A stretch of DNA of 64,000 bases from Candidatus Thorarchaeota archaeon (GTDB lineage: Archaea > Asgardarchaeota > Thorarchaeia > Thorarchaeales > Thorarchaeaceae): the NCBI GenBank assembly GCA_019057475.1, contig DXJO01000008.1, positions 1 to 64,000 of the forward strand, in the 5' to 3' direction. The position numbers and the translations under genes were made by a program. Positions within the stretch are counted from its first letter, which is position 1. Each line of letters begins with the position of its first letter. Positions 23,087 to 53,586 of this stretch are shown here, piece after piece. The notes beneath the pieces are model-generated. The model did no database searches and was not told where the DNA came from. It was given only the letters and a program-made list of their open reading frames with translations.

Positions 23087-24556
23087 CTAATCGTTTGAAA
23101 GTTCTTCTTGAATTGATCTAAACTGATCCAAAGCAGATTCCAGGTTTTCAATAATGTCAGCGGCTATTACCTCAGGTTCAGGTAAGCTATCAATATCCTC
23201 AAGACTCTCATCCTTTATCCAGAGAATGTCAAGGTTCGCCTTGTCTCGTTGGATGATTTCATCATATGTGAATCTTCTAAAGCGTTCTGTTTCAGTACGA
23301 TTATATCTGTTGGATGGATTATAACACTCTATGAACTCTACAAGGTCCTCATACACCAAGGGACTGACTATCAACGTAAAGTGTTTGTTTGTTCTCAAAT
23401 CGTATATCCATAGTTCTTTGGTCCATGGTGTTTCACTAGCTGGTTTTCTATCGAAGAATAGGACATTCGCTTTCACACCTTGCGCATAGAACACCCCTGT
23501 AGGGAGTCTTATCAGCGTATGCACATCACATTCAGCAAGTAATTTGCGTCTGACTGTTTCTCCTGCTCCTCCCTCAAATAGTACGTTATCCGGCACAACA
23601 ATTGCTGCCTTACCCCCTATCTTCAATAAACTCTTGACATGCTGCAGAAAATTGAGTTGCTTATTTGTCGTTGTAGCCCAGAAATCTGGTCTTTCATAAG
23701 TCAGTGATGTCTTAGTGGCCTGCCCTTCTGCATTCATGATTTTGATACTACTTTTTCTACCAAAAGGCGGATTAGTTAGAACGATGTCGAAATGCTCTCC
23801 AGGATGCGACATGAGACTATCCTTAACAGCAATAGGTCCTTTATTCTCATAATACCCACCAATTCCGTGCAAATACAAGTTCATGAGGCAGAGTCTAGCT
23901 GTTTCTGGTACAAGCTCCCATCCCTTGAATGTCTTCATCTTTAAGAACTCTTTCTGGTCCTTGTCTAGCTTATATTGTGAAGAAAGAAATCCATGACCTG
24001 CCAGAAAGAAGCCTCCTGTACCACAAGCTGGATCACATATTGTCCTATTTGGCTCTGGTTGTATTACTTCAACAATGGCTTTAATGAGTGGTCTAGGAGT
24101 GAAATACTGACCTGCCCCACTCTTAATATCCTCTGCATTCTTTTGAAGCAGACCCTCATAGATATCGCCCTTAACATCTACCTTCAAACCCATCCAGACT
24201 TCTCCATCGATTAGATTATTCAGTCGTTTCAACTTTGCTGGATCTTGAATCTTGTTTGATGCACGTCTGAAAATATCTCCTAAAATTCCAGCCTCTTTGC
24301 CTAGTTTGTCAAGAACATGTCTATAATGTTGTTCAAGATCAACACCATCAAGATTTCTTAATGACTCCCAATTAAAACCTGAAGGAATAATGGATTTTCT
24401 ATTGTATGGAGGCTTAGTCTGTTCATCAGCCATCTTGAGGAATAGGAGATACGTCAGTTGTTCCACATAGGCGCCATAACTAACTCCATCATCTCTTAAG
24501 ACATCACAATAATTCCATAATCTTTGAACAATTGAACTCGCATTATTTCGACTCAT
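23087..24556 (-). CDS. hsdM: Type I restriction-modification, DNA methyltransferase subunit
   Basis: 489 residues. An N-terminal HsdM_N helical bundle (IVQRLWNYCDVLRDDGVSYG) precedes the N6-adenine methylase domain: SAM-binding motif ICDPACGTGGFFLAG, and catalytic NPPF in VLTNPPFGRKSS. GQYFTPRPLIKAI is the usual linker motif of this family. It methylates adenines in the sequence chosen by HsdS, protecting host DNA. It directly abuts hsdS (24556/24557), last in the operon hsdR-hsdS-hsdM. Confidence 0.96.
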   Translation of the reverse strand: MSRNNASSIVQRLWNYCDVLRDDGVSYGAYVEQLTYLLFLKMADEQTKPPYNRKSIIPSGFNWESLRNLDGVDLEQHYRHVLDKLGKEAGILGDIFRRASNKIQDPAKLKRLNNLIDGEVWMGLKVDVKGDIYEGLLQKNAEDIKSGAGQYFTPRPLIKAIVEVIQPEPNRTICDPACGTGGFFLAGHGFLSSQYKLDKDQKEFLKMKTFKGWELVPETARLCLMNLYLHGIGGYYENKGPIAVKDSLMSHPGEHFDIVLTNPPFGRKSSIKIMNAEGQATKTSLTYERPDFWATTTNKQLNFLQHVKSLLKIGGKAAIVVPDNVLFEGGAGETVRRKLLAECDVHTLIRLPTGVFYAQGVKANVLFFDRKPASETPWTKELWIYDLRTNKHFTLIVSPLVYEDLVEFIECYNPSNRYNRTETERFRRFTYDEIIQRDKANLDILWIKDESLEDIDSLPEPEVIAADIIENLESALDQFRSIQEELSND

Positions 24557-25897
24557 TCACACTAACCTCTTTTGCACCGACTGCTTTTCTTTTTTGATTC
24601 TACTAAGTAAGGCTTCAGCTGGTTCATCCTTTGCATTCTGTTTAACCAACTGCCCTCGAAAAGCTGAGCGGAGAATTGAGTGTTTCAAATTCTCGGCATA
24701 CTGATGACTCTGTTCAAGATTTCTAAGAGAATTAGAGGCTACCGATAAGTGACGATCAAGAGTATCTACAATCACCTGCTGTTCTGCTTGTGGTGGAATT
24801 GGCACTTTCGTGCTACGAAGACGGTTACCTGTAATAGCATTAAATGTGGTTCCTGTGCTTTGTCGAATAAAATTGTTCTTTAGTGCACGAAATAGATTGA
24901 GGGTGAACGAGGTTTGAGTGCTGTCTTTTGGTCTAACAGCAGCTAATCCCCGTCCTATACAGGCTCTTTCAGGACAGATATTTGTATCTCCAACAGGAGC
25001 TCTTACTGAAAGGAGCACATCTCCTTTTTCAGCAATTCTTATCGGTTCACTACACCATCGGTCAATCTTCGGGTATAATAATCCAAATTCTTTGCTTCCT
25101 TGGAAGAAAGGTAGCCCAATCCCATCTTTGTTATAGGTTGAAGATGGTGGCGATTGGCCGAGTATGATATCAAACGCATCGCCAGCTCTTTTCCATTCCC
25201 ATGAATCCGGGAGCCGCTCTGGTGCTGATTCAGAATGCTGAACTGGTGGGTATTGATTCGATTTTCTCCATTTGGCTGTTAAATCTCCTCTGAATGCGCT
25301 TCGAAGAAGAGAACTTCTGTATTGCTCTGCATTCACCTTGCTTGCAGATAGTGATCTCACACCTGCATCCAATCTACCAAAGAGTTCGTCAATTTTGGAA
25401 ACGATGCGTCTTTGTACATTAAGGGGTGCTAAGGGAATTGAAAGGTTTGAGAGTTTTGTGGCATTCACATTGGGCTGTCCAATGCCTACCTTGCTTTGAC
25501 TGATTTGAATCCAATAGAGCTGGGACTGAAAGTAATAATAAACGTATTTTTTGGAAATCAAATCATTTAAGATAACGCGGATAAGATAAGAGGCGAATAC
25601 AGACTCTGGAATGTGTGATGGGATCATATAGCTTTTGCCAACGGTAGCTCCTGTTCTCGCAAATACTATATCCCCTTCATCAAGCAGGTATTTTGAGATT
25701 TTGTCATCATCTATACTGCAATATGGAACAGTTTTCCAATTCACTTTTCCATCTTGGATGTCTGTAATCCTAAGCATATGTGGTCCTATTGGTTTTTCAT
25801 CTGCACTTGCTGTGTAACCATAATGAATCTTATTTGAAATTTCTCCAATGCGTGTCCATATCCATGAATTTGGAATATCATATTCCTCGGAACTCAT
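24557..25897 (-). CDS. hsdS: Type I restriction-modification, specificity subunit
   Basis: 446 residues with the classic two-fold layout: TRD1 opens with YDIPNSWIWTRIGEI, followed by the first conserved helical region (IPLAPLNVQRRIVSKIDELF, LRSAFRGDLTAKW). TRD2 opens with ERLPDSWEWKRAGDAF, followed by the second conserved helices (VPIPPQAEQQVIVDTL, LRSAFRGQLV). Each TRD reads one half of a bipartite DNA target; the target sequence cannot be deduced. Its start overlaps the hsdR stop by ATGA (25894-25897). Confidence 0.96.
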   Translation of the reverse strand: MSSEEYDIPNSWIWTRIGEISNKIHYGYTASADEKPIGPHMLRITDIQDGKVNWKTVPYCSIDDDKISKYLLDEGDIVFARTGATVGKSYMIPSHIPESVFASYLIRVILNDLISKKYVYYYFQSQLYWIQISQSKVGIGQPNVNATKLSNLSIPLAPLNVQRRIVSKIDELFGRLDAGVRSLSASKVNAEQYRSSLLRSAFRGDLTAKWRKSNQYPPVQHSESAPERLPDSWEWKRAGDAFDIILGQSPPSSTYNKDGIGLPFFQGSKEFGLLYPKIDRWCSEPIRIAEKGDVLLSVRAPVGDTNICPERACIGRGLAAVRPKDSTQTSFTLNLFRALKNNFIRQSTGTTFNAITGNRLRSTKVPIPPQAEQQVIVDTLDRHLSVASNSLRNLEQSHQYAENLKHSILRSAFRGQLVKQNAKDEPAEALLSRIKKEKQSVQKRLV

Positions 25898-28695
25898 TGC
25901 ACCAGCACCTCATTAAGGTCTTCCAAAATTCTATTGAACTCCTCGCCAAATATCTGAAAGGCACGATATGCACCGCCTTTATGTTGAAATGGAACATTCT
26001 CGAAATCTTCAATTTCAATACTCAACGATTGAGCGACATGGTCCCTTATCATCTCTAACCATTCCAACTGCTCAGAAGTAAACTCTTTTCCACGACGTTC
26101 TTGCTCAGTCAACCAGTCATTGAACCTCTCTTCAACTCCTTCGTAGAATGGAGCTAAATCTTCACTTTCACCCAATGCATATCTGATGAGCGATATGATA
26201 TCTGTCAATAGCTTCCTAGCACCGGCCCCATGCACTCTTGACTTCTCAATCCTTTCATAAGCATCCCAGAGAAGTTTAGAAGTTAGACTGTATGGAGGCT
26301 TCTGCAATACCTCTGCAAGTTCTTTGATTGCTTCATAGGTCAGGTTTCTCTGTCCATATGGCTTACTGTATATAATCTGAAGTGCAAGTAATTCGTCCTT
26401 GTTTTCTTCAATGAAATTCTTGAAGCTGCTAACGATTTCTTTTGCTCGTTCTGTCGAAGCCTCATTAAATCCTGCATAGAGTACTTCGTCTCGACTTATA
26501 GTGTCAATAGTTTGTTCACTTCGCTTCTTAATCTCAATCAATATATGTCGAAGTTTGGGCCTGTCAAATGGTTTGCACCCTATTTTCACAAGGGCTTCTT
26601 TTGCCGCTTCTTGTTGTCCCTCATCTGGTTCAACTACATCAAACATTTCTTGAGCCTTTTCTATATGCTTGTCAGGGTCTATTGCATCAAGAAGACCATT
26701 AACAAGATCATTGAGGGATCTACCATCAGATGCTTTCGCCATTTCCTTTTCATCATTAGATGAAATCTTCTCATCTAACCGAGAAAGTCTACTTGCTAAT
26801 GATGATATACTGTCTTCATCCCTCTTTCCTAAAGCGATATGATTCAGAAGCTGCTCAAACGAAACATACGGTTTCCTTTCCAAAGAACGTGAATCGGTCT
26901 TATCATGCTCTGTTACTCCCACCGCATCAACTATCACAAAGTGTGTCTTGTGTGAAGTATCAGGTGTCACACTCTTCATTTCAGTGGTTGGTATGACACG
27001 TGTACCTCGCCCTTTCATCTGTTCAAAATACACTCGGGATTTCACATCTCGCATGAATAATAGACACTCAACGGGTTTGATATCAGTCCCAGTTGATATC
27101 ATGTCTACTGAAACAACAATGCGAGGGTTGTATGAATTTCTAAAGCTCGCAATTAATCGCTCAGGGCTTTCTCCTGTTGTCTTGTACGTGATTTTCTTGC
27201 AGAATTCATTCCCCTTTCCGAATTCCTCTCTGACGATATGTAGAATATCTTCAGCATGAGAGTCATCTTTAGCGAAGATGATGGTCTTTGGGACATGAGT
27301 TCTTCCTGGAAAGATCTCAGTGAACAACCTGTCTTTGAATGTCTTGATTATCAAACGAATTTGATCTGGTGCCACCACATCTCTGTCGAGCTGTTTCGAA
27401 TCATATTCTAGGTCTTCATCCAGTTGCTCCCATCTCAATTTCCGTGTCAGTTTATCTCGCTTATCGATATACTGCTTGGCCTCAACCTTACTTCCTTTTT
27501 CAGAGATCTGTGTTGAAATCCTGTAGATATCATAGTCCACATTCACTCCATCGGCGACAGCCCTTTCATGTGAGTATTCAGTAACCAGATTCTGTTTGAA
27601 GAATCCGAGAGTCTGCTTGGAAGGTGTTGCTGTCAATCCGATCAGGAATGCATCAAAGTATTCTAGAACCTGGCGCCAAAGGTTGTAGATTGATCTATGA
27701 CATTCGTCAGTGATAATGAAATCGAAGGTTTCTATTGGAATATCTGGATTGTAGACAACATCTCGTGGATCGCCATCAAGAGCCATTTCGAATTGGGATT
27801 CTTCTTCATTCTCAGGATCCAATTCTTCCCCTCGTAACATCGAGTATACTCTTTGGATGGTTGATATGCATACACGACTCACCTTGTCAATCGTGTTGGA
27901 TTTAAGATGTTGAACATTGTACAGTTCGGTGAACTTTCTCCCATCATCCGGAGTTTTATACTGTTGAAACTCTTGATACGTTTTTATACCCAAATTCGTT
28001 CTGTCAACAAGGAATAGAATTCGTTTCGCTTTAGCGAATTTTACTAGTCGGTAGCATGATGTGACAGCTGCGAAAGTCTTACCACTCCCTGTAGCCATCT
28101 GGATTAATGCTCTGGGTTTGGACTCGGAGAAAGACGTTTCCAAATTTGTTATTGCATCAATCTGGCAGTTCCAAAGGCCAGTTTCGATTAAATCAGGTAG
28201 CTCCTGTAACCTACCTCGAAGTGTGTCCTCTTGGGAAACCCATTCCTGGAGAGTTGCAGGTCTGTGAAATGCAAAAACTCGTCGTGATCGTGATTCAGGG
28301 TCTCGGATATCCCGGAAGAAGGTTTCTACACCTGTACTCTCGTAAGAGATGGGTAAGGGCTTTTGAAGGCAAGCAACATAATCTGGAATATTGTCCATGT
28401 ACTTCTTGGACTGGATTGCTACTCCCCCAAGAGTAGTACCAACGGGCTTGGCCTCCACTACTCCGACAGCCTTGCGTTCGACGAAGAGCAAGTAGTCTGC
28501 GGCATCCCTGCCGAGTGGAAACTCCCTGACTGCAACTCCTAGGGCGGCTCCCAGGTTTAATTCCCTGTAATCCTGAATGACCCACCCCGCGGTTGCTAGG
28601 AGTGTGTCAATATTTTGCCTTGCCTTCTCTTCGGGTTTCAGTGTTTTGCCATCCCCCGTATGGAGATACTCTCGTTTACCTATGTCTGAGAACAC
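25894..28695 (-). CDS. hsdR: Type I restriction-modification, restriction/translocase subunit
   Basis: 933 residues from GTG 28695. An N-terminal PD-(D/E)XK nuclease (RDAADYLLFVERKAVGVVEAK) is followed by SF2 helicase motors: Walker A ALIQMATGSGKTFAA, DEAD-like DECHRSI, TATP in GLTATPSK, and motif VI region QMKGRGTRV. The C-terminal part matches the EcoEI-type R subunit (GFNEASTERAKEIVSSF and IRDHVAQSLSIE). It translocates and cuts unmethylated DNA. A TATA box lies immediately upstream, giving a nearly leaderless transcript. All subunits are intact, so the system looks functional. Confidence 0.96.
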   Translation of the reverse strand: MFSDIGKREYLHTGDGKTLKPEEKARQNIDTLLATAGWVIQDYRELNLGAALGVAVREFPLGRDAADYLLFVERKAVGVVEAKPVGTTLGGVAIQSKKYMDNIPDYVACLQKPLPISYESTGVETFFRDIRDPESRSRRVFAFHRPATLQEWVSQEDTLRGRLQELPDLIETGLWNCQIDAITNLETSFSESKPRALIQMATGSGKTFAAVTSCYRLVKFAKAKRILFLVDRTNLGIKTYQEFQQYKTPDDGRKFTELYNVQHLKSNTIDKVSRVCISTIQRVYSMLRGEELDPENEEESQFEMALDGDPRDVVYNPDIPIETFDFIITDECHRSIYNLWRQVLEYFDAFLIGLTATPSKQTLGFFKQNLVTEYSHERAVADGVNVDYDIYRISTQISEKGSKVEAKQYIDKRDKLTRKLRWEQLDEDLEYDSKQLDRDVVAPDQIRLIIKTFKDRLFTEIFPGRTHVPKTIIFAKDDSHAEDILHIVREEFGKGNEFCKKITYKTTGESPERLIASFRNSYNPRIVVSVDMISTGTDIKPVECLLFMRDVKSRVYFEQMKGRGTRVIPTTEMKSVTPDTSHKTHFVIVDAVGVTEHDKTDSRSLERKPYVSFEQLLNHIALGKRDEDSISSLASRLSRLDEKISSNDEKEMAKASDGRSLNDLVNGLLDAIDPDKHIEKAQEMFDVVEPDEGQQEAAKEALVKIGCKPFDRPKLRHILIEIKKRSEQTIDTISRDEVLYAGFNEASTERAKEIVSSFKNFIEENKDELLALQIIYSKPYGQRNLTYEAIKELAEVLQKPPYSLTSKLLWDAYERIEKSRVHGAGARKLLTDIISLIRYALGESEDLAPFYEGVEERFNDWLTEQERRGKEFTSEQLEWLEMIRDHVAQSLSIEIEDFENVPFQHKGGAYRAFQIFGEEFNRILEDLNEVLVQ

Positions 28696-43493: not shown

Positions 43494-44312
43494 ATGCCGT
43501 CATATCCACCCAATGAACAGGAGAACCAGCATTTGCAGACAATTTGCCTCATGAATGACGATGGCCCGCAAAGTGCAGGTCTGCTGCAGCTAGCGGACGC
43601 CTTGGCCGACTTCGCGAACCTGACTGTGATTGTCCCTGATGGCCAGCGCAGCGGAACCGGGAAGGCTCTGACGTTGGACCGACCAATTAGGATTACAGAG
43701 AGCACTGATTCCGATAACTACAAGCTCATTGTCCATGATGGGCTTCCAGCAGACTCTGTCATAATCGCCCTATCCATGATTGAGAATGTGGATCTGTTCG
43801 TTTCCGGGATAAATGCCGGAGCCAATCTCGGCTATCATCGAATGCTGACTAGTGGAACGGTCGGAGCGGTGTTCGAGGCCGCTCTTCAGGGATATCCTGC
43901 GGTTGCAGTCTCCATGGTTGTTAGCCCGGAATACTGGTTCGCTAACATGAAGAATGACATTGACTTGGAGCAGACTTGCACCATCACAAAAGGTATCATT
44001 GAACGAGTGCTCGATAAGGGCCTACCCCGGGGGATAAGTGCACTGAACGTCAATTTTCCCGCGAAACTGCTCAAGGAGAGCAGGCTGGTTGTTTCAGAGC
44101 CCACTACAGTTGCAGTTTCGAATCGCTTGGAAGAGAGAACCGATCCTTACGGTAGCTCGTACTACTGGATTTGTGGCGGTGAGGTTGAGTCACAAGTTTC
44201 TGGCGATGCCCTTGAGGTCATGGAGCGCGGCAACATCTCAATCTCACCCATTGTGATTGAGGGCGTCAGGAAAGAAGACATGGAGCACCTACGTCAGTTC
44301 TTGGAGGACTGA
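43494..44312 (+). CDS. surE: SurE-type 5'/3'-nucleotidase
   Basis: 272 residues from ATG 43494. The SurE pattern is clear: ICLMNDDGPQSAGLLQLADA (metal-binding D-D), VIVPDGQRSGTGKALTLDRP, DLFVSGINAGANLGYHRMLT, SGTVGAVFEAALQGYPAVAV, and LNVNFPA. It dephosphorylates nucleoside mono-phosphates and, in studied members, short oligo- or polyphosphate. It is the first of three same-strand genes with gaps of 64 and 76 bases, before the beta-CASP protein and the CARF-PIN protein, which raises the possibility that it clears nucleotide signals or their breakdown products. Confidence 0.9.
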   Translation: MPSYPPNEQENQHLQTICLMNDDGPQSAGLLQLADALADFANLTVIVPDGQRSGTGKALTLDRPIRITESTDSDNYKLIVHDGLPADSVIIALSMIENVDLFVSGINAGANLGYHRMLTSGTVGAVFEAALQGYPAVAVSMVVSPEYWFANMKNDIDLEQTCTITKGIIERVLDKGLPRGISALNVNFPAKLLKESRLVVSEPTTVAVSNRLEERTDPYGSSYYWICGGEVESQVSGDALEVMERGNISISPIVIEGVRKEDMEHLRQFLED

Positions 44313-44376
44313 AAGGTGACCTTTTATGCGACCTGACCAATCGTCCATCACATCACTTGTGTGAGAGGTCTGTGCG

Positions 44377-45894
44377 GTGGTAGAGCTTACATTCTATGGC
44401 GGAGTGAACGAGATTGGTGGAAACAAGATCCTGTTGAAGGATCAGGACACACGGATATTCCTCGACTTCGGAAAGAGCTTTCAGATTCAAAAAAAGTATT
44501 TCGACAGTTTTCTGAACCCGCGAAAGCTGAACATGATTGACGAGCTGGTGAGTTTTGGTCAAATCCCCAGAATCAAAGGGCTCTATCGTGAGGACTACTT
44601 GAAACACGTTGACCCTAACCATTCTCTCCTCAGCGGTGGAAATGAACCGCCTACCGATGCTGTACTAATAACTCACTCCCACCAAGACCATATCGGGATG
44701 ATCCCATGGCTTCGACCAGACATACATCTTCTTGGGTCGGAAACTACAAAGAACATACTGCAATACTGGCAGGTCACCACTAGTGGCGATGGGAGCGAGT
44801 ATCTTGATTGGTATCCTTCATTCCAGACAAAACCTAGGAAGACCAAGCCCAAGAAGGGACAATCCTCATTCATCCGGGTCAGAACAAAGGCGAAATATCT
44901 GAAGGATGAGAAGAGGACACGCGAGTTCACATGTCTATCACCCCAAAAAACGGTTCAAGTCGGTGACGTAGAGGTCGAGTCATATCCGGTTGACCATAGT
45001 CTACCTGGAGCATATGCCTACATCGTTAAGACAAGCTCAGGAAACATAGGATACACGGGAGACCTACGGTTTCATGGTCATGCCCCGGAGCTGTCAAATC
45101 GGTTTGTCAAGGCCCTTGAGGACACAGACATCAAGGTGCTACTCTGTGAAGGCACAAGGGCGGAAGATAAGAAGAGCTTTGGAGAATCGAAGCTGAAAGA
45201 GAAACTGGCCACTGCTTTTGCTTCGACAAAGGGCCTCATCCTTGTCAACTACCCCGCTCGTGATGTCAGCCGAGTCTCCACCATGTGCAGAGCGGCCGCA
45301 GAATCTGGAAGAACTCTGCTCGTGAGTCCGAAGCAAGCATACTATTTCAGTGTCATTGCAGGCGAAAAGGACTTGCCCGTTCCTTCTGATGATGACTTCC
45401 GTGTTCTATTGCCTCGAAAGGATTGGGGAATCTGGGGCAATCAGAGATTCGATGAACTTCTGTGGGCGCAAGACTACAGATATCCCGACCCAGTGGAGAA
45501 AATTATCTTCGAGGGGTCTGACTTACTAACACCCTCAGACGTAGTAAAATCGCCATCTGAATACGTCGTCACATGCAGTTTCTTCGAGTTTGGCCTTCTG
45601 CACGACCTGAATCCCCAATCAGATACATCCTACATCTGGTCACGTTCAGAACCGTTTGATGAAGAAGGCCAGATTGAGTATGATAGAGTATTGAACTGGC
45701 TGTCGCATTTCGGAATAGACGAGCCTGTCACGATGCACTGCTCCGGACACTTGGCTGGGTCAGAAATCCAAGACCTAATCGAGAGAGCGCAGCCAGAGAT
45801 TGTTGTCCCAATTCATACTGAACGACCTGATCTATTCACTGACTGGCACAAGGACGTGAGAATCCTCGAGCAGAATGACACGCTGTCGCTTTAG
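44377..45894 (+). CDS. Beta-CASP metallo-beta-lactamase nuclease (RNase J type)
   Basis: 505 residues from GTG 44377 (SD GAGAGGT). MBL metal motif AVLITHSHQDHIGMIPWLRP (H100, H102, D104, H105), VDHSLPGAYAYIV, GYTGDLRFHGHAPE, then the beta-CASP part and closing motifs MHCSGHLAGSEIQDLIERAQ and VVPIHTERP, as in RNase J exonucleases. Insertions at residues 120-190 (KTKPKKGQSS and RVRTKAKYLKDEK) and the N-terminal NEIGGNKILL match the archaeal RNase J-like group. It should degrade RNA. The following gene is a CARF-PIN fusion, so the pair may act together. Confidence 0.88.
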   Translation: MVELTFYGGVNEIGGNKILLKDQDTRIFLDFGKSFQIQKKYFDSFLNPRKLNMIDELVSFGQIPRIKGLYREDYLKHVDPNHSLLSGGNEPPTDAVLITHSHQDHIGMIPWLRPDIHLLGSETTKNILQYWQVTTSGDGSEYLDWYPSFQTKPRKTKPKKGQSSFIRVRTKAKYLKDEKRTREFTCLSPQKTVQVGDVEVESYPVDHSLPGAYAYIVKTSSGNIGYTGDLRFHGHAPELSNRFVKALEDTDIKVLLCEGTRAEDKKSFGESKLKEKLATAFASTKGLILVNYPARDVSRVSTMCRAAAESGRTLLVSPKQAYYFSVIAGEKDLPVPSDDDFRVLLPRKDWGIWGNQRFDELLWAQDYRYPDPVEKIIFEGSDLLTPSDVVKSPSEYVVTCSFFEFGLLHDLNPQSDTSYIWSRSEPFDEEGQIEYDRVLNWLSHFGIDEPVTMHCSGHLAGSEIQDLIERAQPEIVVPIHTERPDLFTDWHKDVRILEQNDTLSL

Positions 45895-45970
45895 TATGAA
45901 GATGACCTTACGCGATTCCAGGTGAGAACAGAATGCGCGACCCGGACGAATGCACAGGGAGGTTCGAGCC

Positions 45971-47560
45971 ATGAGCAATAGCCAGGCATACATTACACTG
46001 ATGGGGCGCAGCGGATGGGCTGTCGTCAACTCGTTCCATGCGTCTGTGATTGAAACTGATTATCGGCCAGAGGAAGTCATCCTTCTCTACGAGGCTCAGT
46101 ACACCGACGGGATCAAGCCAGTTGTGGAGGGCTTAGAAATAGTACAGGGGACATACTCCACTCCAAACGTCGTACAAGTTGAGGTTCCCACCTCGGATGC
46201 GCATGCCGCTGGCCAAGTGGCACTGGATCTTGTGCGACAGCTGAAGACGAAAGGCTCCAAAGTTGCGCTAGATATCACAGGCGGACGAAAGGCGCTTGTG
46301 GCTGGCAGTCTACTCGCTCTGAAAGACCAAGGTCTTGACCATGTCTACTATCTTGCAATCGAAACAGTTGAGGGAGTAGCTAAGCCCTATCTGATGATTC
46401 CAAAAAGAATCCAGAAACTCATTGACCTAGTCACAAATGAAGTCCAGAGCGCTACTGTTGAATTCGAGTCCGAGAGCAAGCTCACCGATGTGCTCTTGTC
46501 AAGGGATTGTGTCATGATTGTTCTCAATCAGGCCTACAGGCGCGGCGAGCCGATCAGAGTGAAGGCACCATTGATTGGTGTCGACCTTCTCGAACTGAAC
46601 CTTCGGGATGGTAAAGTCACGATGCTGACAGACTCGATGGACTACGGTGAGAAGCGCGACACTAGTGGCTATCGCGGATGGGATCATCCGACCTACTCGG
46701 ACCTCCGAAGATGCCTGTGCTTCTGTGGTCTCGTAGACTATCAGAACAGAGATAGATTTGACAATCTATTGACGAAGAAACTCTGCAAGTCCCGCGACCT
46801 CACTAGTGGAGCACGAAAATCCGTTCTCTCGCTTGACTCAAATATGTACTACAATGGATTTCCCTCCTACTTGGAGAAACTGGAAATACAGTTTGGTATA
46901 CCACCGAAAGATGTAGTCTGCATTACTCCCTTCCCAGTTGTGAAGGAGATTCAGAATAAAATCAAATGGAAATACAAGTTGCAAGAAATCCGTGACGCGC
47001 AGAACCACTATGATTCTTACCAGCTGGGCTCCATAATTGATGAGTTCATTGGTCAGAATACTCTCGAAACAAGGGTTGCCAAGATGGCCAAGTCCGAACT
47101 GACCAAATTCATGAGAAGGCCAACACACGAGAAGACGCGCCGAGTAGATCTCCCCAAGGACAAGGAAGATGTTGACCATCTGATCGTCGATGAACTGGAG
47201 AAATTTGCTGATGAACGTGGTGTGAGCGTGAATCTTGTATCCGCGGACAAGAACATGCACGATTTCTGTGAGTTGGCCCGAGATGTAGGCGTGCAGATTC
47301 TTGTGCTTCCTAGTAAGATACCCCGGACCATGGAGGTGACAGACAGAACTTTCGTTAACCTTCTAGTTGGCCTGTCATTGCTGTACGGGGTTGTGGAGCT
47401 TGAGAAGATCGGGTACCTGTTCGGTGAGTACAGAGGGAAAAGGTCCGAGGTGTACACAGATGAGGTTAAGCTTCGTTTCAGAAATTCACACCGTGCGAGG
47501 ATAGTTGAGGAACGGACTGAAACATGCATGAAACTTAAGCAGCTTGACATAATCAGGTAG
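45971..47560 (+). CDS. CARF-domain protein fused to a PIN nuclease (stand-alone, no CRISPR nearby)
   Basis: 529 residues from ATG 45971, with SD AGGGAGGT eight to ten bases upstream. Residues 1-145: AYITLMGRSGWAVVNSFHAS, EVILLYEAQYTDG, VALDITGGRKALVAGSLLAL and DHVYYLAIE form the Rossmann-like CARF fold; the I-T-G-G-x-K segment is its ligand-binding signature. A middle region (150-280) is unassigned. Residues 283-450 fit PIN: SVLSLDSNMYYN (Asp289), VVKEIQNKI (Glu326), DVDHLIVDELEKFA (Asp400-402) and VNLVSADKNMHDFC (Asp426). CARF domains bind cyclic oligoadenylates made by type III CRISPR; PIN domains cut RNA. Both assignments are by eye. Confidence 0.8.
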   Translation: MSNSQAYITLMGRSGWAVVNSFHASVIETDYRPEEVILLYEAQYTDGIKPVVEGLEIVQGTYSTPNVVQVEVPTSDAHAAGQVALDLVRQLKTKGSKVALDITGGRKALVAGSLLALKDQGLDHVYYLAIETVEGVAKPYLMIPKRIQKLIDLVTNEVQSATVEFESESKLTDVLLSRDCVMIVLNQAYRRGEPIRVKAPLIGVDLLELNLRDGKVTMLTDSMDYGEKRDTSGYRGWDHPTYSDLRRCLCFCGLVDYQNRDRFDNLLTKKLCKSRDLTSGARKSVLSLDSNMYYNGFPSYLEKLEIQFGIPPKDVVCITPFPVVKEIQNKIKWKYKLQEIRDAQNHYDSYQLGSIIDEFIGQNTLETRVAKMAKSELTKFMRRPTHEKTRRVDLPKDKEDVDHLIVDELEKFADERGVSVNLVSADKNMHDFCELARDVGVQILVLPSKIPRTMEVTDRTFVNLLVGLSLLYGVVELEKIGYLFGEYRGKRSEVYTDEVKLRFRNSHRARIVEERTETCMKLKQLDIIR

Positions 47561-47786: not shown

Positions 47787-50700
47787 TTATTGAGATGCCT
47801 GTTTCTTAGCCCGAAATTGGGCGAAGAGGAAGCCAATAGCAATTCCACCAACGATACCAATTCCAAGTAGACTCACTATTACAATTAATGAGTCAGAAGT
47901 TATCGGTTCGTAATGAGATGGTGGACTTGGATACACAATCACATTGGAGTCAGACATTCCTGGCCAGATGAACCTATCAAATTCCAAATAGAATTGTAAA
48001 GATGTGTTCCATGGAATGACGAAACAAAATGTTGCATTGTCAATGGTGGAATATGGCTGTACAAATATCCAAGTACTACTATTTTCAGCTCTCCAAACCA
48101 GAACCATTTCGCTTTCCAACACTGGTTCTATCGAAACAATAACTTCCAATGTGTTGTTCCATTCATGTGGGATCAGAATGAGTTTAGGTGAGCTAAATAC
48201 TACGACTTCGATATCAGACCTAGTCGCTGGGCAATTTGATGCATCAGTTTCAAGAGTAAGAACATACTTACCTGAATTCCAAAATGTGATGTTCCACGTC
48301 TTAGTCTTCATCGATTCAGGACTAATGTCTCCCCATTCTACGATTGGATCTGGGGAAATCTCAACTCCTTGCGGAACTAGAAGTGTGGATACCACATCTT
48401 CGGCATATGCTGATCCTCGTGAATCAAGATTGAGCTGCAAGTTTGTGGACTCACCTACCATGAAAGTGGTGTGAGCGATTGACAACGAAGATTCCACCAC
48501 AACATCCACTATCCGAATCTCTAGGTCTACTACGACCATATAGTCATCACCTGAAAAGACCGTCAGATGATACCAACCCACTTCACCCGGCACAGGGTCA
48601 GTTAGATGTACTTCCAGCCCCACATGTGTCACTTCTCCAGGGACAATTAGATTACTCAGATTGAGCACCCATCCAGGATTGCCCCACACATACCCCCACA
48701 CAAGATGATCTACGGAAACTGTTTCAATAGGATGTTGCCCATAACAGTTGATATACAAATCAATCGTGACCGGGTTTCCGGGCAATACATGAACGACTGA
48801 TTCCTTCACACTAGCAGATAGTCTTCCTGGATTAACACCTATTTTCAGTGTCGCGTTGTAAATTGGACAGTTTGTACCTGTCGCATGGATTGCAATCTCA
48901 AAATTTCCTGACTGTAACGCTTGGACCAACCATGCATAGTTCTTTGGTTGGTTAGGAGCCAAATTTCCTAGATTGGACAACTGGTATGGATTGCTATCCA
49001 CGATTTCTATATTATTCGGCAATGAAATGCTCACATTCAAGTTGGCAATCTCTGTACCTCCCAGTTCACAGAAGAACTGCACTCCAACTGGAAAAGTTTC
49101 GCCAACAGCAATTGTGTAATCAATCTGCTGAGGGACTACTCTGATTCTTGGCATTGGTTCTTCAGGGCCCAACATTAGATATGCGATTGAGTCAGCGAAG
49201 AACTCGTCAGCTGTATGAAAGAATCCATCAATGTTAGAAGTCGTGTCGAGATATATAGCTGAAGTTGTATCAAGGTACCTGACACGATAAGTATTCAATC
49301 GGGATGGAACTGCTCCACCCCAATAGTTCTCAGAGATAGGCACACTAATTATTCGCTGTTCAGCCTCGTTGATTATGCCGCATATCACTTCATCGAATGA
49401 ATTTTTCCCAATACCAATAATCATCTCCCTTGTGTCATCACTCGATATCCCCTCTTGTAACCCTCTGCTATGAGCAAAGGCAGCAACCAGCTTATCTAGA
49501 AAGAGTTCTTCTGTGCTACTCAAACCACAATAGAACACCTGTCCCGCCATGGGGTTGGATTGGTTTTGGTAAATGAACATCGAATATTGACCATCAGTAT
49601 CTTCTTCCGGGAAAGATGTGTCTAGCAATGTGAAATCCTCTGTCAACGTGAAATTCACAGCAGTACGCAAGACACCTTCTTCTGATTCAACATGAAGGTC
49701 AAACGCGTTGGGTCTATCCAGATAGAGTCTTTCTCCATCGTGATACGCTTGATAGGTGACATCAAAGGTCTCATACTCCAAGAGGTTCTTACGTAGGTGT
49801 CCAGTTTCATTTTCCAATGAGCCACTTGTTGACCCGAGAAGTACTAGGTTTCCGCCACTTGCGACATACTCGTTTAACTCAGCTACTAAGTTCTCCCAAA
49901 GAAGGACTTGGTGGTCTACAACCACGAGGTCGTAGTCACTAAGATTAACACTCCCTGATATCACGAGGCGTTGGTTGGTGATGTCCCATGAAGTAAGTCC
50001 AGCACCCTTAGTTGTAGCAAATCCTCGTTCTGCACCTATCACTAGTATCGGGGGACTGCAATCAATAGGTCTAAGATTCTTTCCTTCCTCATACAATTGG
50101 GAGATAAAATCGTAGTACTGTGCCTCAAGATTCTGATCAGTTGACCCGCTTTGTGCAATGTTTTCCCATCCCTGATTAAAGAATGAAATCATATCTGCTC
50201 CGGCGAAGTATGATAACCAAAAGCTCTTTTCTAGGTCATCAGGCGAGGTATATCCTCCTAAAAGATATGGATAGCCAAAAAGCCCAGCCTCAACAGGGGT
50301 TTCAGGTGCATAAGTTTTGTAGAATCGAATGGTTGAGTATGCGTGCATCGGAACAGAAGAGAAAGATTGCGCATAGATCCTATCACTCTTCCATAGTCCT
50401 GGCTCATTTCCCACCCATGGTATGGTACTCCAAAGGACCTCTCTCGATGGATTAATGCCCTTCACATAGTCGTAAATCGTGTTCATCGCACTGGCAGTGC
50501 GGTTACAAATCCACTCATGGAACCAGAAGAGTTCTGTACGATTCATCTCAAAGATGCTCTTGAACCAGAAGCCAGTCTCAGAATGGTAAGTAGAATTATA
50601 CTTGGTTAAGTGCAAAGGCCATGTATTACTTCCGAAGGAGAACCAATCATAAGCTCCACTGGCTGGTTCTTCATCACCCAATATCACACTGTCCATATGC

Positions 50701-51194
50701 TCAGACCATGAGTGATTCTCTATGTCATTGCCTAATATTGCAAGCTGTTCTGCTCTAAAGCTTGTATTATAGTAACTGTCCAGAGGGGAGTTGCCGTAGC
50801 GCCAGGGCCAGAATACGCCTCCCAAACTTACTCCTCGATCATGAAGCCAACGGAATTGGAAAATGGAGTTATGAGCTCCATACGAAGTATACTCAGCTGC
50901 AGACGGTCCCCAGATTACAAGGTCTGATACGTAGTTGGGTAGCTCTTCCCAGCGATGTCTAAGCTGACTTGCCCAGCAAGCAAAAGATGTTCTAAGGAAT
51001 TGGTCAGGATTATTGCCGTCTGCCAGTGAATCCAGAGCTCTCATTTTAGGGAATTGCTCTGTACCCATTCTCAAGTCTACAGATTCAGCCAAATCAGTCC
51101 GGACATTCTGCTCTGGGCTACAGGAGGGCTTAGTGGTGAGGAAGAGTATGATTGCAAGTGTTATGACCAGAATAACTCTGAACTGACGCTGCAT
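47787..51194 (-). CDS. Large secreted surface protein with glycosidase-like barrel, paralogue A
   Basis: 1135 residues, signal peptide VILVITLAIILFLTTKPSC. Residues 90-400 look like a (beta/alpha)8 glycoside-hydrolase barrel (LHDRGVSLGGVFWPWRYGNS, DSVILGDEEPASGAYDWFSF, YHSETGFWFKSIFEMNRTEL, LSYFAGADMISFFNQGW). Residues 405-500 look like the GATase-like domain of beta-galactosidase relatives (PPILVIGAERGFATTKGAG, YDLVVVDHQVLLW, EYVASGGNLVLLGSTSG). Several CARDB-type beta domains and one membrane helix (LIVIVSLLGIGIVGGIAIGF) follow. The adjacent paralogue shares the barrel. Acidic residues at the DEE and HEW positions could be catalytic. It faces away from paralogue B with ATGs that nearly overlap. 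Confidence 0.8.
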   Translation of the reverse strand: MQRQFRVILVITLAIILFLTTKPSCSPEQNVRTDLAESVDLRMGTEQFPKMRALDSLADGNNPDQFLRTSFACWASQLRHRWEELPNYVSDLVIWGPSAAEYTSYGAHNSIFQFRWLHDRGVSLGGVFWPWRYGNSPLDSYYNTSFRAEQLAILGNDIENHSWSEHMDSVILGDEEPASGAYDWFSFGSNTWPLHLTKYNSTYHSETGFWFKSIFEMNRTELFWFHEWICNRTASAMNTIYDYVKGINPSREVLWSTIPWVGNEPGLWKSDRIYAQSFSSVPMHAYSTIRFYKTYAPETPVEAGLFGYPYLLGGYTSPDDLEKSFWLSYFAGADMISFFNQGWENIAQSGSTDQNLEAQYYDFISQLYEEGKNLRPIDCSPPILVIGAERGFATTKGAGLTSWDITNQRLVISGSVNLSDYDLVVVDHQVLLWENLVAELNEYVASGGNLVLLGSTSGSLENETGHLRKNLLEYETFDVTYQAYHDGERLYLDRPNAFDLHVESEEGVLRTAVNFTLTEDFTLLDTSFPEEDTDGQYSMFIYQNQSNPMAGQVFYCGLSSTEELFLDKLVAAFAHSRGLQEGISSDDTREMIIGIGKNSFDEVICGIINEAEQRIISVPISENYWGGAVPSRLNTYRVRYLDTTSAIYLDTTSNIDGFFHTADEFFADSIAYLMLGPEEPMPRIRVVPQQIDYTIAVGETFPVGVQFFCELGGTEIANLNVSISLPNNIEIVDSNPYQLSNLGNLAPNQPKNYAWLVQALQSGNFEIAIHATGTNCPIYNATLKIGVNPGRLSASVKESVVHVLPGNPVTIDLYINCYGQHPIETVSVDHLVWGYVWGNPGWVLNLSNLIVPGEVTHVGLEVHLTDPVPGEVGWYHLTVFSGDDYMVVVDLEIRIVDVVVESSLSIAHTTFMVGESTNLQLNLDSRGSAYAEDVVSTLLVPQGVEISPDPIVEWGDISPESMKTKTWNITFWNSGKYVLTLETDASNCPATRSDIEVVVFSSPKLILIPHEWNNTLEVIVSIEPVLESEMVLVWRAENSSTWIFVQPYSTIDNATFCFVIPWNTSLQFYLEFDRFIWPGMSDSNVIVYPSPPSHYEPITSDSLIVIVSLLGIGIVGGIAIGFLFAQFRAKKQASQ

Positions 51195-51306
51195 GTATTA
51201 TCATACGCGTAATCTTTTGATATACTCTTGCAGAAAACAATTCCCCGCTACTGAGGTCTGCGAAGTCTTAAATTCATCAGAATGCTATACTAAAAGGGGT
51301 TCAAGG

Positions 51307-53586
51307 TTGCGGAGATTTGCTCTTGCTCTATTCTTGGTTGTTGTCATAGCTTCTATGCCGGTTGCAGTAGTGCAGGCTATTCCCACATGGCAAGGTGGCG
51401 AGCCGGGTGTTCGGTGGTATATCTTAATGGGATATGACCCCACTCATTTTGCAACCAGCACTATTTTGCGGCAAGATGTGAGAGCACTCCACCAGTTCGC
51501 GGAGAGAGGTGTTAAGATTGGTGTTGGAGTGGGTATATGGGATGCATTTCCCAGTGAGAGTATACTTGACATATACTACGATGAGTCATGTCTGAGAAGA
51601 CTAGAGCGTCTTATAGATACAGTCTTCGAAGTGGATCCTGGACAGGGACCTGGAGTGAACCCAGAGAGAGTGTGGAGTATGACTCTCGGTGGGGAAGAAC
51701 CATACTGGCCAGCAGGTTACCCTGGTGAGAATCCGATATTCTTCCGTTTCAACGAAACATACCATACTGAGGTGGGATTCTGGTTCAAGCCTTTCGACGA
51801 CATGAATGCTACAGAGAGAATGGTTTTAGTGGAATGGACGAACGAGAAAGGAAATTGGGTTTTCAATCATATGTACGACTATGTCAAGGCAAAGTGGCCT
51901 CACATAGTGGTGTTCCAGTCCTTTTTCCCACCACACCCGATGAACTTTGGTGCAGTTATATTTGAGTTGAAAGCGGATGCTCTATCAATAGATGCCTACC
52001 TAGCTGGAGAGCGTGACAATCCTTGGTTAATCTACAATCCCCATCGGTGGTATACTACATTTGCCCCGGACAAAGAGTTTCACATGGTGCTTTGGGGGCA
52101 AGAAGCAGATGCGCCTCCATGGCTCTTCGAGGGAGAGCTTGGAGGATTTGAGCACATCAGGCGCAATGCTTGGGTTTCCTATCTTGCTGGAGCAAATGCA
52201 CTTGCATGGTTCGATTGGCACCCCTTATACGGGAATGGTTGGCTGAGGACTGATACAATGGGCAAAAGACTGTTCCTGTATGTGAACAGAATTGCTAATG
52301 AGTTACACAAACTGCCACTCTTCAGGGCAAGACCGAAAGTCCTCGTAATTGGTACAGATAATGAGTTCACTGGTCCAGAGGTTGGATGGCCCACTGAGCT
52401 TGGACTATTCACCGAGTATGATATAATGGATCATAGATACTTTGCAAAAGAGGAAGTCGACCTATCACAATATGAACTAGTGATTCATGGTGCCATAACA
52501 CGACGCGAAGAGTTCGTCGAAAAACTCAATGACTATGTGAGTGCTGGTGGTAATGTCGTTTTTTTGGGTGGCATTGGAAGTCGGCTGAATATCTATGAGA
52601 ATGCTACACGTGAAACACTAATTTCCATTGAAGAAGATTCAACAGAATACTGGATTGGAGAACACGTCAATATCAGCATTTCACTCCCGAATCTACTTGG
52701 ACTAGAACTAGAGTATGATGCTCACGATTTCGAGGGAAAAAAGCTCAAGACCCTTAATCTGACTGGAGACTACCATCCGGTTGGCGAATTCCACAGAATC
52801 TTGCCTGATAACAGCACAATACCAGTTGATGGATATCCTCTATTACTATATCATAACTCGTCACAACCAAACTCGGGATGGATTCTCTATTGGGGGATGC
52901 TTAAGGCTTCAGATAATGCAAAGTTCAACTGGATGAACAAGAACGATACGGCTCTTGTGAGGTTTCTAATACATGAAGTGGTCCAATCTTATGCGGTGAA
53001 CTTCCTAAACATGAATGGGTCGGTTTCGACTCCTGATACGGAACAGATGCTAATTACCCAATCGATGGTGGAGGAAGGGACAATCTTAGCGGCTCTCTCA
53101 AACTTCATGGTTGATTCATGGGAACAATACATGCCAGTGGACAAGGATGTGAATTACACTCTGGACTTAGAGCAATTCGACTTACCTGATGGAGAATACT
53201 GGGTTCATTCAGTGGACAAGAATCAATCGCTTGGTAGCTTCACATCAGACAATGCATTACTTGAGATTCCAGTTCATGTGGCTGCGAACGACACACGCCT
53301 CCTTCTAATATCCCAAGATAGACCACAACCGAATTACACTATCAACATTTTTCCACCTGTTCCTACACCTGAAGAAGTGGAACCCGCCACGTTGCTCTCT
53401 GAAGATACAGAAATCGTCAAATCTCCTTACACACGTCCTGTGGCTGGTGAAGCGGATCTATCAGATGCCGCAGTCAATAATCCAGTAATTGATGCCTTAA
53501 GGAACCCCGGTGTCGTCGTACTTATCGCCACTTTCTTGCTAGTTCAGCAACATTACCGTAAGAAACGGTTGGGAGTGGGGCGATGA
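51307..53586 (+). CDS. Secreted surface protein with glycosidase-like barrel, paralogue B
   Basis: 759 residues from TTG 51307 (GGGGTTCAAGG just upstream), which gives a proper signal peptide RRFALALFLVVVIASMPVAV; an ATG at 51193 would add 38 polar residues and overlaps the ATG of paralogue A. Barrel and GATase-like domains match paralogue A: LGGEEPYWPAGYPGEN, YHTEVGFWFKPFDDMNATER, VSYLAGANALAWFDWHPLYG, PKVLVIGTDNEF, YELVIHGAITRREE, YVSAGGNVVFLGGIG. The C-terminus has a membrane helix (GVVVLIATFLLVQQ). The CARDB domains of paralogue A are missing. A substrate cannot be named. It overlaps the beta-propeller gene by ATGA. Confidence 0.8.
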   Translation: MRRFALALFLVVVIASMPVAVVQAIPTWQGGEPGVRWYILMGYDPTHFATSTILRQDVRALHQFAERGVKIGVGVGIWDAFPSESILDIYYDESCLRRLERLIDTVFEVDPGQGPGVNPERVWSMTLGGEEPYWPAGYPGENPIFFRFNETYHTEVGFWFKPFDDMNATERMVLVEWTNEKGNWVFNHMYDYVKAKWPHIVVFQSFFPPHPMNFGAVIFELKADALSIDAYLAGERDNPWLIYNPHRWYTTFAPDKEFHMVLWGQEADAPPWLFEGELGGFEHIRRNAWVSYLAGANALAWFDWHPLYGNGWLRTDTMGKRLFLYVNRIANELHKLPLFRARPKVLVIGTDNEFTGPEVGWPTELGLFTEYDIMDHRYFAKEEVDLSQYELVIHGAITRREEFVEKLNDYVSAGGNVVFLGGIGSRLNIYENATRETLISIEEDSTEYWIGEHVNISISLPNLLGLELEYDAHDFEGKKLKTLNLTGDYHPVGEFHRILPDNSTIPVDGYPLLLYHNSSQPNSGWILYWGMLKASDNAKFNWMNKNDTALVRFLIHEVVQSYAVNFLNMNGSVSTPDTEQMLITQSMVEEGTILAALSNFMVDSWEQYMPVDKDVNYTLDLEQFDLPDGEYWVHSVDKNQSLGSFTSDNALLEIPVHVAANDTRLLLISQDRPQPNYTINIFPPVPTPEEVEPATLLSEDTEIVKSPYTRPVAGEADLSDAAVNNPVIDALRNPGVVVLIATFLLVQQHYRKKRLGVGR

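Follow-up and report, generated by a model that had tools for sequence, protein, structure and literature searches.

In type III CRISPR signalling, CARF effectors are generally regarded as the output arm. The combination of a CARF domain with a PIN domain was reported in 2014 (Makarova et al., PMC4012209), the 2025 classification (PMC12669027) counts PIN among the effectors of type III, and the CARF domain of RtcR, which acts outside CRISPR, binds 5' tRNA halves ending in a cyclic phosphate (PMC7790460). In this report, we focus on a CARF-PIN gene of a Candidatus Thorarchaeota archaeon, which follows the genes for an RNase J-like beta-CASP protein and a SurE-type nucleotidase on the + strand. 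The window, by which we mean the whole stretch of 64,000 nucleotides that was analysed, forms the start of contig C40 (146,620 bases) in genome G000, a metagenome-assembled genome (MAG) of 56 contigs and 3.34 Mb that is 96.4% complete. We consider it moderately probable that these genes constitute a small defence or stress cassette, in which a CARF-gated ribonuclease operates in the absence of its own type III CRISPR system.

The CARF-PIN protein and its beta-CASP neighbour

By every sequence and predicted-fold feature tested, the 529-amino-acid protein encoded at 45971-47560 is a member of the CARF-PIN family. Its CARF domain (45983-46444, residues 12-163, motif ALDITGGRKALVAG) matches the PADLOC model CARF_m1 at 2.5e-41, and the combined model CARF_m1--CARF_PIN (PDLC01973) spans residues 12-514 of 536 (2e-33). 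The sequence DITGGRK at residues 101-107, counted from 45971, satisfies the CARF motif DxT[G/P]GRK; this start (MSNSQ..) is probably correct in preference to 45950, because the orthologue in G227, a genome of another genus, begins at that position. The linker and PIN-type nuclease half (46445-47557) escaped the Pfam PIN models on their own in a Pfam PIN search of the genome and, since these models fail on the protein, the PIN identity was examined through profile searches, an alignment and the predicted fold. When 40 Asgard CARF, PIN and CARF-PIN proteins are aligned, D-[ST]-N, E, D..I and D stand out as conserved motifs, and the acidic columns are conserved across Asgard and haloarchaeal CARF-PINs. 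In the window protein these acids lie between 46835 and 47248, namely D289 (46835-46837), E326 (46946-46948), D402 (47174-47176) and D426 (47246-47248), numbered from 45971; of Asp400 and Asp402, the latter occupies the conserved Asp column. Judged from this alignment, the catalytic acids are intact. A profile search of the PDB recovered SiRe_0806, named there a PIN domain-containing protein, as well as the PIN domain of SMG6/EST1A.

The AlphaFold model of the protein (predicted local distance difference test, pLDDT, 89.5; predicted template modelling score, pTM, 0.87) leads to the same family. Its top five PDB matches in Foldseek are all Sulfolobus islandicus SiRe_0806, in the apo form and with cyclic tetraadenylate (cA4), at E-values from 8e-17 (9jxx) to 1e-14, the ligand being taken from the PDB title, and they are followed by CARF-type matches to Can2, Cam1, Csm6 and Cad1. 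The SiRe_0806 match covers the full length, with a template modelling score of 0.65 by target length. A preliminary description made from the letters of the window had proposed an N-terminal CARF domain and a C-terminal PIN domain with the acidic set Asp289, Glu326, Asp400-402 and Asp426. Both assignments hold, the first through the CARF_m1 match and the second with a numbering that is exact from 45971 and with Asp402 in the conserved column. Neither of the results that would have refuted that description was obtained, since CARF and PIN matches were both found and the three genes are neighbours in a relative as well.

A second CARF-PIN copy is present in G000 (C47:11690-12997; L031 9188-10663), which is 86-87% identical to the window copy and is without roughly the first 94 CARF residues, so that its sensor is probably broken. 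It is not a recent duplicate, because its synonymous divergence from the window copy is 0.28.

The gene at 44377-45894 encodes, according to profiles, alignment and a structural model, an intact RNase J-like beta-CASP protein of the metallo-beta-lactamase type. It matches Lactamase_B_2 (6.7e-11) and RMMBL (3.9e-5) in Pfam and RNase J in NCBIfam (2.7e-22), and its metal ligands are complete in the alignment (HxHxDH at 100-105, H207, D229, H458 and H480). Foldseek places its AlphaFold model (pLDDT 83.9) closest to EF2904 (2az4) at 7e-30, with archaeal and bacterial RNase J at about 1e-22 to 1e-26. The beta-CASP, CARF and PIN parts are all maintained, because their ratios of nonsynonymous to synonymous substitution (dN/dS) against the congeneric genome G006 are 0.10, 0.11 and 0.14, respectively.

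Homologues of the beta-CASP protein are widespread in Asgards, and its distribution within the window's family (f1) follows that of the window-type CARF-PIN. The beta-CASP gene was found in 5 of the 38 f1 genomes tested (G000, G006, G227, G016, where it is partial, and G036), and the window-type CARF-PIN occurs in four of these five carriers versus none of the 33 others (Fisher p=7e-5); in the fifth carrier, G036, the contig ends within the beta-CASP gene. The f1 members with only the type III-linked form of CARF-PIN (G017 and G020) are without the beta-CASP gene. In G046 (L037 5102-8132), a beta-CASP homologue (37%) is followed after 44 bases by a WD40 protein with a C-terminus that looks TIR-like by eye; the beta-CASP protein may partner different effectors.

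Gene order and the accessory SurE

The three open reading frames (ORFs) run on the + strand at 43494-44312, 44377-45894 and 45950-47560, and the intergenic gaps are 64 and 76 bases, as the preliminary description of three same-strand genes with short gaps had it. In G227, the order surE2, beta-CASP, CARF-PIN recurs, all on one strand, and chance adjacency was rejected on this ground. In the congener G006, the beta-CASP and CARF-PIN genes stand together at 90-92% identity, on a contig that starts inside the beta-CASP gene, with other genes downstream; neither nuclease gene was found in five congeners. At the ends of two contigs in G016 lie the start of a beta-CASP gene and the end of a CARF-PIN gene, with orientations compatible with a candidate adjacency. 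In a distant Asgard family (G204, G205 and G207), split CARF and PIN genes adjoin N6-methylases, and in G207 the PIN gene is separated by an inserted beta-CASP gene from the gene that directly flanks it in G204 and G205. No relative was found among viral contigs, phages or viral folds.

Upstream, at 43494-44312, lies surE2, an accessory SurE-type 5'/3'-nucleotidase gene, the product of which matches Pfam SurE at 4.7e-44 and keeps the NDDG and SGIN active-site motifs when aligned to the SurE structure 1l5x. G000 carries two surE genes, the housekeeping one being at C56:13434-14225 and 54% identical to the window copy, and the idea that the window surE is itself a plain housekeeping gene was rejected with the finding of that copy; nearly every family member has one copy of the housekeeping type. 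In the SurE2 tree, the window copy groups with that of the G227 module (95/87), and these two together with second copies from G007 and G011 form a separate clade (100/100). The window SurE2 and the copy beside the G227 cassette are 82% identical over 107 amino acids. The SurE2 genes of G007 and G011 sit in other surroundings, without CARF-PIN; the G007 contig (C4, L144) has several ORFs that by eye resemble PIN/VapC-like toxin-antitoxin genes, as well as a DNA methylase-like ORF. The DNA identity between G000 and G227 reaches 84-89% over the 3' portion of surE2 (window 43986-44310 versus L090) and about 55-60% across both nuclease genes, a drop at the end of surE2 that suggests recombination or an exchange of the downstream nuclease pair and weakens the view of surE, beta-CASP and CARF-PIN as one co-inherited unit. 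This step and the other surroundings in G007 and G011 show that SurE2, a dedicated paralogue, is not tightly co-inherited with the two nucleases. The three-gene arrangement described at first is conserved in a second genus; the roles proposed with it, a second RNase that finishes degradation and a nucleotidase that clears the products, are putative.

The gap in front of the beta-CASP gene contains a 21-base element, TTTTATGCRACCTGACCAATC (44322-44342, + strand), of which G227 shares 20 of the 21 bases. The window and G227 copies are the sole full matches among all loci examined, and the element is a possible promoter candidate.

CRISPR context and competing explanations

No CRISPR-like repeat array was found across the window and the 80 kb to its right, and a scan of the remaining ORFs in the window and a further 20 kb showed no cas family at E<=1e-8 among the 25 listed of 31 matched families. 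At the genome level, Cas10 was not found in G000, G006 and G227 with one profile (PF22335, palm2), nor Cas1 in the whole of G000 with one profile; the three linked-cassette MAGs without Cas10 are 96, 87 and 99% complete. Among eight CARF-PIN carriers, G000, G006 and G227 included, there was no match to SMODS (PF18144) or to a DAC cyclase, and with these two results a cyclic-oligonucleotide-based antiphage signalling system (CBASS) with its CD-NTase and cyclic di-AMP signalling by DisA were rejected. The absence of an array, Cas10 or other cas genes nearby, as described at the outset, is therefore upheld. The further label of a CRISPR-independent system is likely to be right, no type III machinery having been found in the genome, but it rests on MAGs. 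With no Cas10 and no array found, the window protein is not filed as a type III ancillary effector; it may work like one nonetheless.

Of 228 Asgard genomes, 31 have a CARF-PIN match, and Cas10 is present in 21 of these 31 versus 30 of the 197 others (p=4e-9). In the tree, the window clade and its sister clade of G130, G204, G205 and G207 join in one group (100/99), and the four Cas10-adjacent forms stand together elsewhere. A pooled PADLOC scan of the sister-clade neighbours gave type IIG/DISARM/PglX-type methylases and, once these were removed, no cas family, while the neighbours of the other CARF-PIN clade are Cmr and Csm proteins. In G041 (C73, L034), the CARF and PIN genes are split; next to them lie cas2, cas4 and a CARF gene of the Cas_NE0113 family, and the PIN protein ends in an HTH_17 (excisionase-like) domain.

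Starting from the domains, fold, intact active sites, conserved order, purifying selection on both nucleases and lack of detected Cas10, Cas1, CD-NTase and DisA homologues, all of them established computationally, we infer ligand binding, activation, RNA as the target and the roles of the partners as follows. The CARF domain, probably dimeric, would bind a small nucleotide or an RNA-derived signal, and in its ligand-bound state would switch on the PIN domain, leading to the cutting of RNA. The RNase J-like beta-CASP protein would act in the same pathway, most likely by trimming the cut RNA or by removing the signal, and the accessory SurE2 would dephosphorylate the released nucleotides. The signal would derive from a source other than the host Cas10, since in this lineage the cassette would work without its own type III CRISPR. 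A more specific proposal, which we offer only tentatively and regard as rather doubtful, is an Asgard CARF-gated ribonuclease cassette driven by a nucleotide signal from a yet-undescribed enzyme (not Cas10, CD-NTase or DisA), possibly made or released when restriction or methylation systems meet foreign DNA. More generally, a conserved cassette whose CARF-gated nuclease is under purifying selection where Cas10 is not detected would imply that archaea have another source of CARF ligands, and it would offer a direct handle for finding that source, via what activates the expressed protein, as well as connecting a beta-CASP ribonuclease with a CARF effector.

Several points weigh against a cassette that is independent of type III CRISPR. 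Cas10 is present in 3 of 8 genomes of the window and sister clades versus 18 of 23 other CARF-PIN genomes, a difference in the expected direction but not significant (p=0.07), and the clade members G016, G205 and G207 come from genomes with Cas10. All genomes are MAGs, from which a plasmid-borne or unbinned Cas10 could escape, and the models searched were a single profile each for Cas10 (palm2) and Cas1 and those of two cyclase families. The recent history of SurE2 differs from that of the two nucleases, as the identity step between G000 and G227 indicates, and the window neighbours are mostly not defence genes, though a type I restriction-modification system lies 15 kb away. In addition, the evidence is computational throughout, the ligand, the activation and the RNA target being predicted.

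The main rival explanation, which we regard as unlikely, is that of an ordinary ancillary effector of type III CRISPR whose own locus is gone but which still answers the cyclic oligoadenylate of a Cas10 on an unbinned plasmid, on a mobile element or in a missing part of the MAG. Such an origin would agree with the enrichment of Cas10 in CARF-PIN genomes, with the cA4-bound crystal of the closest solved relative, with the typical CARF motif that is kept and with the split genes beside cas2 and cas4 in G041, yet all three linked-cassette genomes are without detected Cas10, which makes it less likely, plasmids aside; a whole clade, not one genome, is positioned away from cas genes, and the CARF domain is still under purifying selection. 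A damage-sensing role like that of RtcR seems improbable to us: the window CARF matches CARF_m1 and, weakly, Csx1/Csm6-type profiles with no RtcR-type match seen, and the patchy distribution and the defence-type neighbourhoods of the sister clade point to defence, even though a CARF domain that binds tRNA halves with a cyclic phosphate is a precedent (PMC7790460), an RNase J-like protein and a nucleotidase as neighbours would suit a part in RNA decay, and no cyclase was found in the carriers searched. The order kept in two genera, the tracking of the window-type CARF-PIN by the beta-CASP gene and the recurrence of a beta-CASP/CARF/PIN association in G207 also make it very improbable that the neighbours are coincidental, with CARF-PIN acting alone and surE2 and the beta-CASP gene as passengers. 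In favour of passengers are the occurrence of SurE2 without CARF-PIN in G007 and G011, the beta-CASP family being common in Asgards without CARF neighbours, and the possibility of separate promoters, given that each gap measures 64-76 bases.

Neighbouring genes and comparison with known systems

Elsewhere in the window, a complete type I restriction-modification operon occupies 23087-28695 on the - strand, with hsdR at 25894-28695, hsdS at 24557-25897 and hsdM at 23087-24556 (PADLOC 8e-194), and further ORFs in the stretch scanned there gave matches to mad2/mad3/mad8 and to a type II methylase. Downstream of the CARF-PIN gene, at 47787-53586, two large proteins (1135 and 797 amino acids) are encoded divergently with overlapping starts, both weakly matching a GH42 trimerisation domain.

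Type III ancillary nucleases such as Csm6/Csx1, Can2, Card1 and Cam1 have the CARF sensor domain in common with the window protein, Card1 being another of its Foldseek matches, but their effectors are HEPN, PD-(D/E)xK or membrane domains instead of PIN, and no type III locus was found here. The likeness to RtcR lies in a CARF sensor outside CRISPR; RtcR, however, is a sigma54 activator and not a nuclease, and neither an AAA+ or helix-turn-helix domain in the window CARF-PIN nor an rtc gene among the ten neighbours scanned was found. In the Panoptes/mCpol systems, a CARF or S-2TM effector stands beside a minimal CRISPR polymerase (mCpol); the window effector is not a membrane protein, and no Cas10-like palm was detected by PF22335, no mCpol-specific model having been applied. 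Haloarchaeal plasmids of Halorientalis, Halomontanus and Halobaculum (L151-L153) likewise combine CARF and PIN with no cas gene annotated within 9 kb, but as separate genes that fall outside the window clade in the tree and with no beta-CASP or SurE gene annotated. On these plasmids, the CARF gene, which two of the three annotations call a CRISPR-associated ring nuclease, directly precedes the PIN gene, and the pairs adjoin an ADP-ribosylglycohydrolase or DUF4011 gene, the Halobaculum pair being beside BREX. With RNase J, archaeal RNase J and Enterococcus EF2904 (2az4), the window beta-CASP protein shares the fold, the metal ligands and the RMMBL motif; it differs in forming a separate subgroup, with an insert at about residues 140-195, in being accessory and patchy in the family, and in its pairing with CARF-PIN.

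The closest described relatives are the CARF-PIN family proteins (PDLC01973), including SiRe_0806 (PDB 9jxw, and 9jxx with cA4), with which the window protein shares the CARF-then-PIN arrangement, a whole-length profile and fold match and the same catalytic acids, at an identity to SiRe_0806 of about 13%. Literature searches aimed at SiRe_0806 or CARF-PIN surfaced no relevant paper, and no description of a Cas10-free, beta-CASP/SurE-linked CARF-PIN was found in a comparison outside which the main CARF review lay. Unlike the known CARF-PINs, the window gene is linked to beta-CASP and SurE2 genes in a genome without detected Cas10, and it is a single fused gene, the two domains being encoded separately in most Asgard relatives. 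Since CARF-PIN has already been described and modelled in PADLOC, and a cA4-bound relative has been solved, it is the stand-alone state and not CARF-PIN itself that is unusual; the new part is a Cas10-free, beta-CASP/SurE2-linked variant of the CARF-PIN family.

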